The notes under the pieces: generated by a model | Database searches by the model: none | What the model saw: the letters and a program-made list of their open reading frames with translations, nothing else | Told to the model about the DNA's origin: nothing | Position numbers and translations under genes: made by a program | IMG/VR virus record: IMGVR_UViG_3300044627_003481 | Coordinates: 1-37,619 of that record | Direction: 5' to 3' (one strand) | From: a virus | Length of the DNA: 37,619 nucleotides | Shown here: positions 2,377-24,114 of the stretch, in pieces | Layout of the letters: each line of letters starts with the position of its first letter | Numbering within the stretch: position 1 is the stretch's first letter

Positions 2377-2405
2377 TTTCAATGATAAAATTTGAGGAAT
2401 ATTTT
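2371..2405 (+). repeat. 35-base direct repeat, copy 1 (promoter plus targeting-peptide codons)
   Basis: This stretch matches 4152-4186 at 34 of 35 positions; the one difference is C/T at the tenth base. It covers the TAAATA motif, the spacer and the first eight codons (MIKFEEYF) of two different genes. The two proteins show no similarity beyond it. Confidence 0.85.
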
Positions 2406-4154
2406 AATATATTAAATGAATCGGTTAGTAGAACTAATCGATACATGAATATGTTTTCTTTTCCTATAAAGGTTGCTCCTCATTTTAGAGATTTTTTGTC
2501 TAAATTTTTAAAAGATAATGTAATTCCGACTCTTAAAAGAGATGATATCATCCAATGGTATTGTCGTTTATATGTTTTATATATTTTAGATGCAATATCA
2601 AAAGATAAACATTCACAAAATGTATATAATCAAAATTTAAAACAAATAAATAACACTACAAATCATTACCTCAAAAATTTCGGATATTCTTCTAAAGATG
2701 AATTTATTGAAGATATAAAAATATCAACAAATAGAGGAGATATGGAAAATGCCTTATTAAGGTCTTTGGGACATTTTTTCTCTTTGGGTATTTCAAAAAT
2801 AGATAATTATAGATTCTCTAATCAAAAAATTTCAGATGTAATTTCACAATTTGAAGAATGGGAAGATGAATGGAAAAAAGAAGCAGTATCATCTTTTGAT
2901 GATACAGAGGAACATCCAACACAAACGGTTTTGAAAAGATATCCAAATGGTTTTGAATGGGTATCTTTAAATAAAACATATTGCGAAAAAGAAGGATCAG
3001 CAATGGGTCATTGTGGAAATCGTCCTTCCCAAAGACAAGGAGATAATGTTATTTCTTTGAGAAAAGTAGAAATGCGTGGCAAACAAAGATTTGTTCGTCC
3101 GAGTTTAACATTTATCTATAATAATATAGATAATGAATTTGGAGAAATGAAAGGAAGAGCAAACGAAAAACCAAACCAAAAATATCACGAATATATCGTT
3201 GACTTATTATTACTAAAAGACGAAACAGGTGATTTTTTATTTAAAAAATTAAATCCTAATTATGGTTATATGACAGAAAATAATTTTAGGATATCAGATC
3301 TAGATAAAAAATACTTACAAATAATAAAAGATCAGCGTCCTAATATTATTACATCATATGATGAATATAAAATATCTGGTTATTCCGAAGAATATATTAA
3401 AAAAATCAAACAAGATTTAGAAAAAACCAATCTTAAAGTAATTCATTTACAAAATTTTGATTTTTCCAAAACGCATCCCATAAGAATTACTGAACAGATT
3501 AATAAGTACGAGTTTCTAGAAAAGATAGCAATCGAAAAATTATATGAAGATGCCGAAAAAGCTATTAATTATATAAATGGAGAAGAAGAATTATATATCG
3601 ATAGCGAGTTTGATTCTAATAGTTTTGAATTTATATTAAATTTAACTAATCGAAAGTATCCGAAATTTCAAAAAGAATTACAAGAATATATAAAAAATAA
3701 TTATGATGTAGAAAATGATTTAATTTATATTTCGGAAATGGCTGAATTTTTATATGATAATAATGACTCTCTTGTAGATTCTGCTCGTAACTCACATAGT
3801 AATGCAACACATTCTGGTTATATAAATAATATAAGAGATGACTTACTTTTATATATCGAAAGTAGTGACATACAATATTATTCAACAGAAGATACCGATT
3901 CTGAAGTCCGCCCAATGGAAATTTCTATTTTAGAAAACCATATTATATGGGGTATGAGTGCAGAAGATTTAAACAATATAATAGGATCAGCAGAATATGT
4001 AAAAACATCCAAACCATTTAATAAATCAATTTTGGATTTTGTGGAAATTGTAGAAAATAAAAAATTTTCCTTAGATAGAAAAGATTATGAAGGATTTGAT
4101 ACAGATTATGCAATATCTTCTTTTATAGAAGAAATTCCTTTTAAAATAATATAA
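2382..4154 (+). CDS. large cargo candidate with PcfJ-like core
   Basis: A 590-residue protein. The opening MIKFEEYFNILNES resembles the T4 capsid-targeting sequence, with a possible prohead-protease cut after E13. Around residues 205-275 there is a block containing SAMGHCGN (Cys211), then an S-L-R strand, a beta-strand pair and GRANEKP. This order (Cys motif, SLR, GR-N-x-x-P) recalls the PcfJ-like domain of mobile elements and phages, whose biochemistry is unknown. The C-terminal half is acidic and mostly helical. The late promoter motif and targeting-like N-terminus suggest a protein packaged in the head and delivered to the cell. The function is inferred, and the domain match is by eye. Confidence 0.7.
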   Translation: MIKFEEYFNILNESVSRTNRYMNMFSFPIKVAPHFRDFLSKFLKDNVIPTLKRDDIIQWYCRLYVLYILDAISKDKHSQNVYNQNLKQINNTTNHYLKNFGYSSKDEFIEDIKISTNRGDMENALLRSLGHFFSLGISKIDNYRFSNQKISDVISQFEEWEDEWKKEAVSSFDDTEEHPTQTVLKRYPNGFEWVSLNKTYCEKEGSAMGHCGNRPSQRQGDNVISLRKVEMRGKQRFVRPSLTFIYNNIDNEFGEMKGRANEKPNQKYHEYIVDLLLLKDETGDFLFKKLNPNYGYMTENNFRISDLDKKYLQIIKDQRPNIITSYDEYKISGYSEEYIKKIKQDLEKTNLKVIHLQNFDFSKTHPIRITEQINKYEFLEKIAIEKLYEDAEKAINYINGEEELYIDSEFDSNSFEFILNLTNRKYPKFQKELQEYIKNNYDVENDLIYISEMAEFLYDNNDSLVDSARNSHSNATHSGYINNIRDDLLLYIESSDIQYYSTEDTDSEVRPMEISILENHIIWGMSAEDLNNIIGSAEYVKTSKPFNKSILDFVEIVENKKFSLDRKDYEGFDTDYAISSFIEEIPFKII

Positions 4155-4157
4155 ATA
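4150..4157 (+). promoter_or_regulatory. TATAAATA late promoter for the gene starting at 4163
   Basis: A perfect T4 late-promoter octamer five bases from ATG 4163. It overlaps the TAA stop (4152-4154) of the preceding gene. Confidence 0.75.
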
Positions 4158-4186
4158 TTTTAATGATAAAATTTGAGGAATATTTT
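4152..4186 (+). repeat. 35-base direct repeat, copy 2
   Basis: Second copy of the promoter and N-terminal-codon module at 2371-2405. The similarity stops abruptly after the eighth codon. Confidence 0.85.
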
Positions 4187-4798
4187 TTTAAAGAAGCACC
4201 AAATGTTGATGTGGTGCCGGGGAGATTTCATGGTGATGAAAGTACTCCTGATAGAATTAAAAAGTATGATCCTCGTCCGATGTTTAAAAAACACACAGAA
4301 AAACACGGATACCGTCCACACGGTGAATATTACAATAAACAAACTTCTGAGATATTAACCGATACTGTATATGAAAACGGAACGATTGATTGTTCTACAG
4401 GAAGAGCATCATTTAGTACTTCGGATAATAAAACACTATATCCTGATAATATACAAACAAAAATTAAAGGATCTAGAAATTATAGGACAAATTTAGTTCG
4501 TCCGTCACTTTACAATTGGATTGAAAAGCCGGATAATCTTCGAGATGACTCGTTTTTAATTACAATTGAAAGCGGCTCAATACACTTATATTGTTTAAAA
4601 TTAGAAATGCTAAATCCAGTTAAATTAGCAAGACATATACAAAAATCAAAAACACCATCTGGTGGTATAACATACAAAGAACCATCACTACGTCCTATGA
4701 CTTCTGGAAATTTAAATTTAGGAAACGTAATCGGAAAGATTATATTTAAATCTTCTAAAAAAGAACATCCATTATACGATACGATAACGGTTCGTTAA
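4163..4798 (+). CDS. hypothetical protein with capsid-targeting-like N-terminus
   Basis: A 211-residue protein of unrecognised family. Its first eight residues are identical to those of the 590-residue protein upstream, then FKE-A gives a possible processing site after E11; Phe rather than Leu or Ile at the third position is atypical. The remainder is basic, rich in Lys, Arg, Ser and Thr, with no membrane segment or cysteine motif. The tandem arrangement, shared promoter module and basic body fit a second cargo protein packaged with the DNA. Confidence 0.65.
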   Translation: MIKFEEYFFKEAPNVDVVPGRFHGDESTPDRIKKYDPRPMFKKHTEKHGYRPHGEYYNKQTSEILTDTVYENGTIDCSTGRASFSTSDNKTLYPDNIQTKIKGSRNYRTNLVRPSLYNWIEKPDNLRDDSFLITIESGSIHLYCLKLEMLNPVKLARHIQKSKTPSGGITYKEPSLRPMTSGNLNLGNVIGKIIFKSSKKEHPLYDTITVR

Positions 4799-4847: not shown

Positions 4848-5201
4848 ATGTCTCATAAACTTACCTGTATTATTACAGGAAAACAAATAACCGTAGGAAA
4901 CGAATACTACGATAAAAAAGTATCCCAGTTTGGCTCAGAAGAGAAGTTCAATTCTCTTTATGTCTCTCGTCAAGTAAAAAGCCTACTTAAACGTGGGTAT
5001 AAAGTAAAAGAAATTAAGGATCTTCTAAAAGTTGACAGAGAAGATTTACCAGAAATCACTGATAAAACAGTTAAAGAAATCTTGAAAATTAATGACGAAG
5101 ATAGCTTCAATTCCGAGACTATTAGTGTCAAGAAATCAGACCCAGAAGTAGTAGAATATATACAAAACCTCCGTGAGTATTTATCTTGCGGAACTCTTTA
5201 A
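4848..5201 (+). CDS. conserved-looking hypothetical protein
   Basis: A 117-residue soluble, charged protein beginning MSHKLTCIITGKQ. A Cys followed by TGK near the N-terminus hints at a small zinc- or nucleotide-related fold, but only one Cys lies nearby and I cannot assign a family. The body is predicted helical with lysine-rich repeats (VKEIKDLL, VKEILK). A GGAGGA sits one base from the ATG, too close for an efficient Shine-Dalgarno. It lies just upstream of the nuclease-nrdB-nrdA block and lacks the late motif, so it may be an early or middle gene. Confidence 0.6.
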   Translation: MSHKLTCIITGKQITVGNEYYDKKVSQFGSEEKFNSLYVSRQVKSLLKRGYKVKEIKDLLKVDREDLPEITDKTVKEILKINDEDSFNSETISVKKSDPEVVEYIQNLREYLSCGTL

Positions 5202-5230
5202 AAGGTAGTATATTATCACGTAATTTTTAT

Positions 5231-5238
5231 TATAAATA
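5231..5238 (+). promoter_or_regulatory. TATAAATA late-promoter-like octamer before the HNH gene
   Basis: A perfect octamer, but 8 bases from ATG 5247 instead of the usual 5. It may originally have served nrdB, whose first codons appear to be copied into this nuclease gene. Confidence 0.55.
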
Positions 5239-5246
5239 TATAGGCT

Positions 5247-6029
5247 ATGATATTTGACGAACAAATTTTTACAAATCCTCCTTTTATGGATTTGATTGAT
5301 AAATGTTGTTCAAAATGTAAAAATAATAAAAGCATTTCACTCTTTCCAAAAAGAAAGAATAAAATAGATAGTTGGTGTAAACAATGCTATATCGAAAATT
5401 CCAAAACATATTCGAAGAAAAATAAAGAAAAAATAGCAATTAAGAAAAAAGAATATGTTTTAAAAAATAAAATTGATATTGCAGAAAAACAAAAAGAATA
5501 CTCTTTAAAAAATAAACTTACTATTTCTTTATATCAAAAAGAATATTGTTTAAAAAATAAAGAATTAAAAACGCAATATGACAAAGAATACTATCTCCTA
5601 AATAAAGACAGAAAAAATACACAAAATAAAAAATGGAGAAAACTCAGAAAGAAAACAGACCCATCTTTTAGATTTAAGTGTAATATAAGTAAACAATTTT
5701 GGAATATCCTTTCTAAAGGACACGGAAAGAACGGCAATAAAACATTGGATATATTAAATTCTTTAGGTTATTCCTTAAATGATTTAAAAATACATTTAGA
5801 AAATAAATTTACCGAAGGTATGTCTTGGGAAAACTATGGAAAATGGCATGTGGATCACATAAAGCCTGTGTGCTCATTTAAGTTTTCTTCTATAGAAGAT
5901 CCCTCTTTTAAAGAGTGTTGGTGTTTGGAAAATTTACGCCCCCTATGGGCTAAAGATAATTTTAAAAAAATATCTTCAGATATAAAACAATCAATTCACA
6001 AAAAATATGAAAACCGAAAACTCTATTAA
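5247..6029 (+). CDS. free-standing HNH homing endonuclease
   Basis: A 260-residue nuclease. Residues 20-50 hold two C-x-x-C pairs (CSKC, CKQC), a zinc-ribbon-like DNA-binding element. They are followed by four degenerate repeats of about 16 residues with the core KEYxLKNK (about residues 60-125). The C-terminal third carries the HNH core: WHVDHIKPV, then NLRPLWAKDN. The first codons encode IFDEQI, matching NrdB residues 9-14, and the DNA agrees at 18 of 21 bases (5250-5270 against 6031-6051). The gene ends 23 bases inside nrdB. This fits a homing gene inserted at the nrdB start that took over the original promoter and first codons. Confidence 0.85.
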   Translation: MIFDEQIFTNPPFMDLIDKCCSKCKNNKSISLFPKRKNKIDSWCKQCYIENSKTYSKKNKEKIAIKKKEYVLKNKIDIAEKQKEYSLKNKLTISLYQKEYCLKNKELKTQYDKEYYLLNKDRKNTQNKKWRKLRKKTDPSFRFKCNISKQFWNILSKGHGKNGNKTLDILNSLGYSLNDLKIHLENKFTEGMSWENYGKWHVDHIKPVCSFKFSSIEDPSFKECWCLENLRPLWAKDNFKKISSDIKQSIHKKYENRKLY

Positions 6030-6999
6030 AATATTCGATGAACAAATTTCTTTAAAACCAAACAGGTATCCTTGGAGCACTAAATTTATTGATTCTATGC
6101 ACAATGGATTTTGGACCGATAAAGAATTTAATTTTAGTTCTGATATACAAGATTTTAAAGTAAATCTTTCAGAAAAAGAAAAAGAAATTATTATTAGAAC
6201 TTTATCTGCTATTGGACAGATAGAAATTAGTGTAAAATCTTTTTGGGCTAAGTTAGGTGATAATCTTCCGCATCCTTGTCTTCAAGATTTAGGATATGTT
6301 ATGGCTAATGTCGAAGTTATACATAATACAGCTTACACTAGATTATTGGATGTATTAGGGATTGAAGAAATTTTCCAAGAAAATCTTAAACTAAGTTGGA
6401 TCGAAGGAAGAGTAAAATATCTTCGTAAATACACACATCGCTTCTATAAAGATAGTAAGAAACAATATCTATATGCTTTAATTCTCTTTACTTTATTTGT
6501 AGAGAATGTATCACTGTTTAGTCAATTTTATATTATTAATTGGTTTGCTAGACATAAGAATGTATTAAAAGATACGGATCAGCAAGTTCGCTATACTAGA
6601 AATGAAGAAAACATTCATGCTTTGGTAGGTATTAAGATTGTTAATACTATCAGAGAAGAATATCCTGAGTTATTTGATCAAGAATTAGTAGATAAGATTG
6701 TTAAAGAAGCAAAAGAAGCATTCGAATCAGAATCGACAATTATTGATTGGATGATCAATGGGATTAAAGAAGAAGGATTAGATGCAGTAACTTTAAAAGA
6801 ATTTGTAAAGAATCGTATAAACAATTCTTTAGAACAAATTGGATTTCCACAAGTATTTGAGGTAGACAAAAGCATTCTTTCTGCTACTATGTGGTTCGAA
6901 GAGGAATTGTTGGGTAATAACATGACTGATTTTTTCAAGTCTCGTCCCGTCGAATACTCTAAAAACAGCCAATCATTTGGCGAAGAAGATTTATTTTAA
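6007..6999 (+). CDS. nrdB: class Ia ribonucleotide reductase, small (beta) subunit
   Basis: A 330-residue beta subunit that generates the tyrosyl radical for dNTP synthesis. Iron ligands and radical site are visible: E73 (candidate first ligand), E103-x2-H106-x3-Y110, E167 and E202-x2-H205. Y110 is the radical tyrosine position, so this is not the Tyr-less type. The C-terminal FGEEDLF tail would dock the large subunit. The start lies inside the end of the HNH gene with no visible ribosome-binding site and no late motif; the ATG at 6007 keeps the usual FDEQI region intact. nrdA follows after three bases, so the two are co-expressed. Confidence 0.95.
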   Translation: MKTENSIKIFDEQISLKPNRYPWSTKFIDSMHNGFWTDKEFNFSSDIQDFKVNLSEKEKEIIIRTLSAIGQIEISVKSFWAKLGDNLPHPCLQDLGYVMANVEVIHNTAYTRLLDVLGIEEIFQENLKLSWIEGRVKYLRKYTHRFYKDSKKQYLYALILFTLFVENVSLFSQFYIINWFARHKNVLKDTDQQVRYTRNEENIHALVGIKIVNTIREEYPELFDQELVDKIVKEAKEAFESESTIIDWMINGIKEEGLDAVTLKEFVKNRINNSLEQIGFPQVFEVDKSILSATMWFEEELLGNNMTDFFKSRPVEYSKNSQSFGEEDLF

Positions 7000-7002
7000 A
7001 TT

Positions 7003-8646
7003 ATGAGTGATATATATTGGTTAAATAAGGACTCTAGGACTTTTCTAGAGAGAGGTTATCTTGTTAAAGACGAAACTCCAGAACAGCGAATTGCTGATAT
7101 CGCAAATGCTGCGAAGCAATTTCTAGGAGAAGAATATTATAACAAGTTTATCGAGTATATGCATAAAGGGTATTACTCATTAAGTAGTCCGCTCTGGAGC
7201 AACTATGGCAGAGAAAGAGGATTGCCTATTAGTTGCTTTGGTAGTTATATTCCAGATACAATGGAAGGTATTCTAGAAAAAGCTGCTGAAGTTGGAATGA
7301 TGACCAAGGGTGGTGGCGGTACTTCTGGATATTTTGGTGATATTCGTGGACGAGGTGCTGCTATTTCTTCTGGTGGTGTTTCTACAGGAGCAGTACATTT
7401 CATGGAAATTTACGACACGCTGATGCATGTGGTATCTCAGGGAAATGTTCGCAGAGGATCATTCGCTGCTTATCTTCCCGTGGAACATCCTGATATTGAA
7501 GAGTTCCTAAAGATCAAAAGCGAAGGAAATCCTATTCAAGATATTTCTATTGGGGTATGTGTTTCTGATGAATGGATGAAGTCGATGTTAGAAGGAGACA
7601 AGCAAAAAAGAAAAGTATGGGGCGATATCATCAAAAAACGCTTTGAAAGTGGATATCCATATGTATTCTTTTCAGATAATGCTAATAATAATGCTCCTCA
7701 AGTTTATAAAGACAAAGGAATGAAGATTCTACACAGTAATTTGTGTAGTGAGATTTTTCTTCCGAATAAACAAGACGAGTCGTTTGTATGTAATTTAGCT
7801 TCTATGAATCTCGAACAATGGGATGAATGGAAGAGTACTGATGCAGTTCAAGTCATGATTCATTTTCTTGATGCAGTAATGACTGAATTCATTGATAAAA
7901 CCGAAAATGATAAGTACATGCAAGCTCCTAGGAATTTTGCTATTAATCACAGAGCACTAGGATTGGGAGTATTAGGATGGCATTCTCTTCTTCAGAAGAA
8001 GAATATTGCATTCGAAAGCATGGACGCTAAGTTTCTAAACGTAGAAGTATGGAAATTTATTAGATCCGAATCAGATAAGGCTACGTGTGATTTAGCTCAG
8101 AAATTCGGAGAAGCACCTTTATTAAAGGGATATGGACGTAGAAATACTACGACTCTAGCAGTAGCTCCTACTACATCTAGCTCATTTATTCTAGGACAAG
8201 TATCACCTAGCGTAGAACCTCTTAATTCAAATTACTATGTTAAGGACCTTTCTAAAGGGAAATTCACGTATAAAAATCCATATCTTAAATCTTTACTCAA
8301 TGAAAAGGGACAAGATACTGATGAAGTTTGGAAAAGTATTTTAATTAAAGCTGGAAGCGTTCAGCATTTAGATTTCTTAACTCAAGAAGAAAAGGATGTA
8401 TATAAGACATTCGGAGAAATAAGTCAGAAAGAAATTGTTATACAAGCTTCCCAAAGACAGAAGTATATTGATCAAGGACAAAGTTTGAACTTTATGATTC
8501 CTCCAAATACAAAACCAAAAGAAGTGAATGAACTTATGATTTTTGCTTGGGAAATGGGAATTAAGAGTTTATACTATCAGCGTAGTGCAAATCCCGCTCA
8601 AGAGCTTGCCCGGTCTATTTTAAATTGTAAAAGTTGCGAAGCTTAA
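7003..8646 (+). CDS. nrdA: class Ia ribonucleotide reductase, large (alpha) subunit, short form
   Basis: A 547-residue catalytic subunit, against about 760 in E. coli. It starts directly in the ten-stranded barrel and lacks the N-terminal ATP-cone, so it should escape dATP shut-off, a common phage adaptation. Active-site residues are present: C78, N246, C248 and E250 (NLCSE), and C263. A Tyr pair (SLYYQRS) near residue 528 provides the radical path, and the C-terminal C542-x2-C545 pair is for thioredoxin or glutaredoxin re-reduction. It is coupled to nrdB upstream. Confidence 0.95.
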   Translation: MSDIYWLNKDSRTFLERGYLVKDETPEQRIADIANAAKQFLGEEYYNKFIEYMHKGYYSLSSPLWSNYGRERGLPISCFGSYIPDTMEGILEKAAEVGMMTKGGGGTSGYFGDIRGRGAAISSGGVSTGAVHFMEIYDTLMHVVSQGNVRRGSFAAYLPVEHPDIEEFLKIKSEGNPIQDISIGVCVSDEWMKSMLEGDKQKRKVWGDIIKKRFESGYPYVFFSDNANNNAPQVYKDKGMKILHSNLCSEIFLPNKQDESFVCNLASMNLEQWDEWKSTDAVQVMIHFLDAVMTEFIDKTENDKYMQAPRNFAINHRALGLGVLGWHSLLQKKNIAFESMDAKFLNVEVWKFIRSESDKATCDLAQKFGEAPLLKGYGRRNTTTLAVAPTTSSSFILGQVSPSVEPLNSNYYVKDLSKGKFTYKNPYLKSLLNEKGQDTDEVWKSILIKAGSVQHLDFLTQEEKDVYKTFGEISQKEIVIQASQRQKYIDQGQSLNFMIPPNTKPKEVNELMIFAWEMGIKSLYYQRSANPAQELARSILNCKSCEA

Positions 8647-24106: not shown

Positions 24107-24114
24107 TATAAATA
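24107..24114 (+). promoter_or_regulatory. TATAAATA late promoter for the gene starting at 24120
   Basis: A perfect octamer, spacer TTCGT of 5 bases to ATG 24120. Confidence 0.75.

Follow-up and report, generated by a model that had tools for sequence, protein, structure and literature searches.

The stretch of DNA analysed here (the window) comprises positions 1–37,619 of the viral record IMGVR_UViG_3300044627_003481, has a base composition of 68% AT and carries, on its plus strand, a free-standing HNH endonuclease gene (5247–6029, 260 amino acids (aa)) whose end overlaps the start of nrdB, the gene for the small subunit of class I ribonucleotide reductase (6007–6999, 330 aa; Pfam PF00268, E = 1.2e-48). 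The large subunit gene nrdA follows directly 3′ of nrdB (7003–8646; PF02867, E = 1.3e-100), and a conserved gene encoding 117 aa (MSHKLTC…; 4848–5201) lies upstream, forms the left flank of the insertion and served as synteny marker; all features described are on the same strand. The HNH protein matches PHROG 1035 (endonuclease VII; E = 7.9e-14) and has about 80 HNH relatives. Here, we present evidence that this gene reads from the translation start of nrdB, and that the beginning of nrdB has been supplied a second time behind it.

The two neighbouring genes begin alike. The HNH protein opens with MIFDEQIFTNP and residues 9–18 of NrdB read IFDEQISLKP, while at the DNA level 5250–5270 and 6031–6051 agree at 18 of 21 nucleotides (nt), leaving three differences. 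The peptide match is an outlier with a score of 34, compared with 33 in another genuine case and at most 24 in the remaining HNH genes tested; the DNA repeat by itself is moderately unusual (score 13, p ≈ 0.01 against mismatched pairs of HNH and downstream genes). A sequence-only reading of the window had pointed to this repeat, to an octamer, TATAAATA, ahead of the HNH gene (5231–5238, 8 nt before the ATG) and to an nrdB start that lies 23 nt inside the 3′ end of the HNH gene, stop codon included, and has no visible signal. All of these observations were confirmed, and nrdB lacks a Shine-Dalgarno sequence. Its interpretation, an insertion of the nuclease gene into the nrdB start, is supported by the comparison with related phages.

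For this comparison, we fetched 80 nrdB loci with 75–82% aa identity to compare the NrdB starts and picked syntenic relatives via homologues of the gene at 4848–5201; the collections searched leave out records very near the window. In most of the 80 relatives NrdB begins with ATG-ATH-TTY-GAN-GAR-CAR-ATH, that is MIFDEQISRKP or MIFEEQISRKP, so that the HNH gene opens, from the start codon onwards, with the codons that normally begin nrdB. The closest fetched nrdB relative, L162, is a syntenic phage without the HNH gene, with one extra open reading frame (ORF) between the flank gene and nrdB. Its sequence ATTTTTATTATAAATATATAGGCTATGATATTTGACGAACAAATTT is identical to window positions 5223–5268 over 46 consecutive nt, which include the original nrdB 5′ leader with TATAAATA (5223–5246, now ahead of the HNH gene), the start codon and the first 22 nt of nrdB (ATGATATTTGACGAACAAATTT, 5247–5268, the left, native copy), whereas the bodies of the two nrdB genes are about 82% identical in nucleotides. 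Immediately past the junction, L162 continues with CCCGTAAACC into nrdB and the window with TTACAAATCC into the HNH gene. Because of this comparison, the HNH gene is placed inside nrdB about 22 nt past its start codon. The alignment thus shows that the nuclease would be read in frame from the start codon of nrdB, behind the upstream element of nrdB, and that its first seven codons are those of nrdB.

Further empty sites are provided by L009, L064, L163 and L164, in which the homologue of the flank gene lies directly before nrdB and is followed at once by MIFDEQISRKPN (in L162 it lies before the extra ORF); the leader of L064 also shows TATAAATA..AGGCatATG. The HNH gene is therefore optional at the nrdB site, being absent from all five of these phages. 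The check proposed by the sequence-only reading, that relatives without the HNH gene should start nrdB with an IFDEQI-type sequence directly after the same upstream region, gave exactly this result (MIF(D/E)EQI after the same upstream element), and the result that would have spoken against the reading, insert-free relatives with no match to 5221–5270 upstream of nrdB, did not arise. The proposed insertion just inside nrdB thus stands, given the identity to L162 and the retained first codons; the wording to be adjusted is “original promoter”, for which “original upstream element and translation start” is the fitting description, TATAAATA being a candidate promoter only.

The alignments also show nrdB to carry a second copy of the captured codons 3′ of the insert (ATATTCGATGAACAAATTTCT, 6031–6051) and to be, as predicted from its reading frame, intact from there on. 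The suggestion that nrdB was given a new start at the end of the nuclease gene accordingly holds, but the 5′ end of nrdB has in addition been re-created by this right copy. Translation from the new start would add the N-terminal extension MKTENSIK (6007–6030), which is read from the last HNH codons in another frame (23 nt of overlap, 6007–6029) and is not found in the MIFDEQI-type relatives. Compared with L162, the right copy has two synonymous changes within IFDEQ (TTT/TTC and GAC/GAT), and the next codons are changed as well: all loci together give 67 distinct NrdB starts, 66 of them with SRKP, and SLKP occurs in the window alone, exactly at the insertion point. Over its first 30 nt the right copy is nearest to L003 (87%), whose NrdB is also extended (MGTEATKLK-IFDEQI), while L162 is nearest over the rest of nrdB (82%) but reaches 76% over the first 75 nt. 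A derivation of MKTENSIK from an L003-like extension was not supported by significant similarity (shuffle p = 0.10).

The nuclease itself looks intact, since the catalytic residues are conserved: in an alignment with its relatives (A2) it keeps the motif W-x-N-Y-G-x-W-H-x-D-H…N…N, with the (nearly) invariant columns of the HNH core, W194-E-N-Y-G-K-W-H-V-D203-H204…N229…N238, at 5826–5969, and the invariant cysteines of an N-terminal zinc-ribbon (C21-x2-C24…C44-x2-C47) at 5307–5387. According to the distribution of N-terminal lengths and to the same alignment, HNH relatives usually start three to six residues before the first zinc-ribbon cysteine and normally have no residues matching the captured NrdB N-terminus, while the window protein has 19–20 residues ahead of this cysteine. 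Met14 (ATG at 5286–5288) would be a typical native start and is likely to be the ancestral one, so that the borrowed leader would comprise 5247–5285, of which 22 nt match nrdB. The gene is a separate ORF with its own stop codon overlapping the nrdB start and, with no Rfam match, is not placed in a self-splicing intron or intein; by every feature testable by sequence, it is a free-standing HNH homing gene. Pfam (even at E 0.1) and NCBIfam returned no family for the protein, a PDB sequence search gave no match, and an AlphaFold model (predicted template modelling score, pTM, 0.35) yielded noise only when searched against the PDB.

To determine how common this arrangement is, we compared the starts of 237 genes of the window HNH clade with the start of the respective next gene. 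Start-to-start identity of at least six residues was found for two of the 237 genes (in L153 and L447) and for none of 20,000 mismatched pairs; the window falls outside this count, as the ATG is no longer present in its right copy. In L153 (and L154), the HNH protein begins with MVRIYSIPE (MVRIYSIPEFKIC), and the next gene, encoding a glutaredoxin (PF00462), begins with MVRIYSIENCPYC, the two starts in L153 forming an exact duplicate of 22 nt. In the empty relatives L260 and L257, the same upstream gene runs straight into the glutaredoxin gene, through the junction. The left copy of L153 follows them through ATGGTAAGAATCTATTCAATCCCAGAGT, after which the HNH sequence begins; the right copy ceases to match them at codons 8–9, again at the insertion point. 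This HNH gene appears to depend on the captured start codon, as no alternative start codon precedes its first zinc-ribbon cysteine. A scan of GTDB with the L153 HNH protein returned five distant relatives.

The third case, L447, involves what may be a virion-assembly gene, to judge from a weak similarity and from gene order. The HNH protein begins with MSHLSA after AAAGGGAGGACAC, with a strong Shine-Dalgarno sequence now standing ahead of the HNH gene, and the protein of the next gene also begins with MSHLSA, with 12 of 18 nt identical, all differences synonymous and four of six codons changed. The spacing between nuclease and target differs among the three cases (23-nt overlap in the window, 4-nt gap in L153, 1-nt gap in L447). 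Taken together, among roughly 240 genes of the clade no fewer than three have an apparent captured start, at three unrelated targets, and because the same anatomy is seen at the glutaredoxin and the virion-assembly gene, start capture looks like a recurring strategy of this HNH clade. Other candidates were rejected: the shared runs in L089, L100, L116, L143 and L152 are three residues or shorter, which is about chance level, and those in L287 and L121 were noise on inspection.

The explanation that we favour, with a probability of roughly 0.8, is that a free-standing HNH homing gene captured the translation start of its target and left a rescuing copy of the 5′ end downstream. It builds on the observed anatomy, the empty sites and the recurrence at other targets, and adds cleavage, homing and protection of the substitute copy as steps that we infer. 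The homing gene would have entered nrdB about 22 nt past the start codon, and in related phages its nuclease would recognise the nrdB start that has no insert and cut (or nick) it. During repair with the carrier as template, the nuclease gene and the substitute nrdB 5′ end would be copied together, which would keep the target functional. The nuclease would be expressed from the target's own start, and NrdB would be translated from the start inside the last nuclease codons, probably coupled to translation of the nuclease. The substitute copy may escape cutting through its altered junction (SLKP in place of SRKP, and the synonymous TTT/TTC and GAC/GAT). Because a deletion must restore the nrdB start, the element should be hard to lose. 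As a tentative generalisation, which we consider somewhat improbable in this full form, a class of phage HNH homing genes might act as a natural capture-and-rescue drive: each would invade an essential gene within its first six to nine codons, appropriate the translation start and bring along a recoded 5′ copy resistant to cutting, such that removal would kill the target gene.

Several points weigh against this explanation. The two copies in the window differ from each other no more than expected from the general divergence from L162 (about 18% of nucleotides), and the copy differences thus do not demonstrate selection for resistance of the right copy to cutting. No close relative with the same insertion was found in the collections searched, so that spread of the allele was not seen, and L447 has no matched empty site (two weak matches in the phage collection, without a matching start, and none in two GTDB genomes). 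Cleavage, homing and expression are deduced from sequence.

Where the right copy came from is a sub-question within the favoured explanation. It may have been brought in with the cassette from a phage whose NrdB was already extended, as a foreign nrdB 5′ end comparable to the foreign ends of the fungal atp6 elements, an origin that we regard as a serious possibility at somewhat less than even odds and that does not exclude capture of the start. It would account for the weak signal that the first 30 nt of the right copy are nearest to L003 and the rest of nrdB to L162, and would agree with the two copies of L447 differing by synonymous changes only, in four of six codons. The similarity of the extension to that of L003 is, however, not significant, and the copies in L153 are identical over 22 nt where relatives differ, which favours local duplication. 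A duplication of the target site, in which the two ends of a break staggered by about 20 nt were both filled in, would produce the observed geometry (native left flank and repeat, insert, repeat and native right flank) as well as direct repeats of similar length in two independent cases (19 nt in the window, 22 nt in L153). Yet the right copy is useful only if it extends as far as the start codon, so that selection alone could set this length, and staggers of about 20 nt are not known for HNH enzymes; we consider this route unlikely.

The remaining alternatives concern the insertion itself. If the nuclease gene had landed ahead of an intact nrdB and had later received a duplicated nrdB leader and start at its front, nrdB would be complete downstream and the outcome would look similar. 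But the right copy lacks any native nrdB leader, the left copy matches the empty site exactly and is joined without a break to the native flank, and L153 shows the same left/right asymmetry, all of which makes this sequence of events improbable. Still less plausible is splicing, by a group I intron or an element of another type, that would restore nrdB, with the HNH ORF in frame with the 5′ exon. Phages with HNH genes inside nrdB introns are on record (PMC7344957), but Rfam gave no intron match in the window or in L153 and a ribozyme core around the HNH ORF was not found, the ORF fills the insert almost completely, and the missing codons are already present on the 3′ side. Chance resemblance between two AT-rich starts, for which only the modest significance of the DNA repeat alone could be cited, is removed by the in-frame match to the family start and by the 46 consecutive bases identical to the uninterrupted locus of L162.

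Start capture with a re-created 5′ end shares parts with several known systems. The free-standing HNH homing endonucleases of T4-type phages include mobA–E and hef, of which mobE adjoins nrdB, and in the accessible part of the source these homing genes are described as promoter-less cassettes harnessing upstream signals, some with overlaps of 20–24 nt and possible translational coupling (PMC2988022). The expression part of our explanation is therefore in line with known biology. Like T4 mob and hef, the window HNH gene lies outside introns, is situated near or in ribonucleotide reductase genes and varies in presence between related phages; in contrast to the T4 cases as described there, which lie between genes or split a gene into two polypeptides, it uses the target's start and comes with a re-created target 5′ end (PMC2988022). 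The PHROG 1035 label of the window protein, endonuclease VII, recalls F-CphI and other homing endonucleases with an Endo VII motif in cyanophages; the window protein keeps the D-H…N…N pattern, whereas F-CphI lacks the central Asn, and the portion of its description available to us mentions no start capture (PMC6083498).

The closest precedent for the duplicated end is found in the endonuclease ORFs of fungal mitochondria that come with a duplicated gene terminus, in atp6 of Allomyces macrogynus and in atp6, atp9, cox2 and nad3 of Glomus (PMC3630166). There, too, one end of the host gene is present twice alongside an endonuclease ORF, the gene remains usable and its native end is displaced; but the fungal elements duplicate the C-terminus and encode LAGLIDADG or GIY-YIG enzymes, while the window element involves the 5′ end and an HNH enzyme, and the displaced native end starts the nuclease (PMC3630166). 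The phage cases mirror this arrangement at the 5′ end. Synthetic home-and-rescue gene drives similarly place an endonuclease in an essential gene together with a rescuing copy, although, as far as the consulted part of that work goes, they are engineered CRISPR systems in insects and the likeness to a natural phage element is an analogy (PMC7968924). In an open-access library, which does not cover subscription journals and so cannot prove absence, we found no description of the 5′ capture version.

If the explanation is correct, one HNH clade would have made three independent insertions inside the start of a target, each using the target's ribosome entry and returning a copy of its beginning, in contrast to free-standing homing genes that usually lie between genes or split them. 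This would offer a testable account of how homing genes can colonise new coding sites while the phage survives, and of why their loss is difficult, and the recognition site would be predictable from the captured codons. Annotators should be aware that some phage nucleases open with residues that belong to the gene next to them.

The role of the octamer upstream of the captured start was considered separately. TATAAATA is not over-represented in the window (11 octamers versus 8.5 expected), and the counts do not support a T4-type late promoter. Three of the five plus-strand octamers lie 5–8 nt before a start codon (4150–4157, 5231–5238 and 24107–24114), nearer than a usual promoter would be.

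Other loci of the collection show related or adjacent features. The extra ORF of L162 (152 aa, no assigned family; L162:4001–4900) lies between the flank gene and nrdB; the flank gene has a new C-terminus there (IRNIRETFLI), and a remnant of its old 3′ end (TATTTATCTTGCGGATTC…) is found after the ORF; this may be a similar insertion that affects the C-terminus of its target instead. In two of the empty-site phages, a GIY-YIG/NUMOD3 homing endonuclease gene separates nrdB and nrdA (L064:5001–5738 and L164:5408–6145); the window has no such gene at this place, its nrdB and nrdA being 3 nt apart. NrdA of L064 (L064:5751–8525, 924 aa) contains an apparent intein (CVSGDQRVVSSLG…). In four loci (L099, L105, L119 and L280), HNH proteins of the clade carry an N-terminal GRP(S/T)KY helix-turn-helix-like domain, and their genes adjoin a terminase-small-subunit-like gene with a similar N-terminal domain; these are perhaps older, longer captures of the neighbour's N-terminus. 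In L356 (5145–5960), an exact repeat of 25 nt (ATTAGAAATTATGAGAACAATTAAA) covers the start codons of both a lipoprotein-like gene and the unrelated gene that follows it, and no nuclease was recognised in this pair. Finally, two adjacent genes in the window itself, 2382–4154 and 4163–4798, open with nearly the same residues (MIKFEEYF), and L064 has a similar start upstream (MINFEEYFF).
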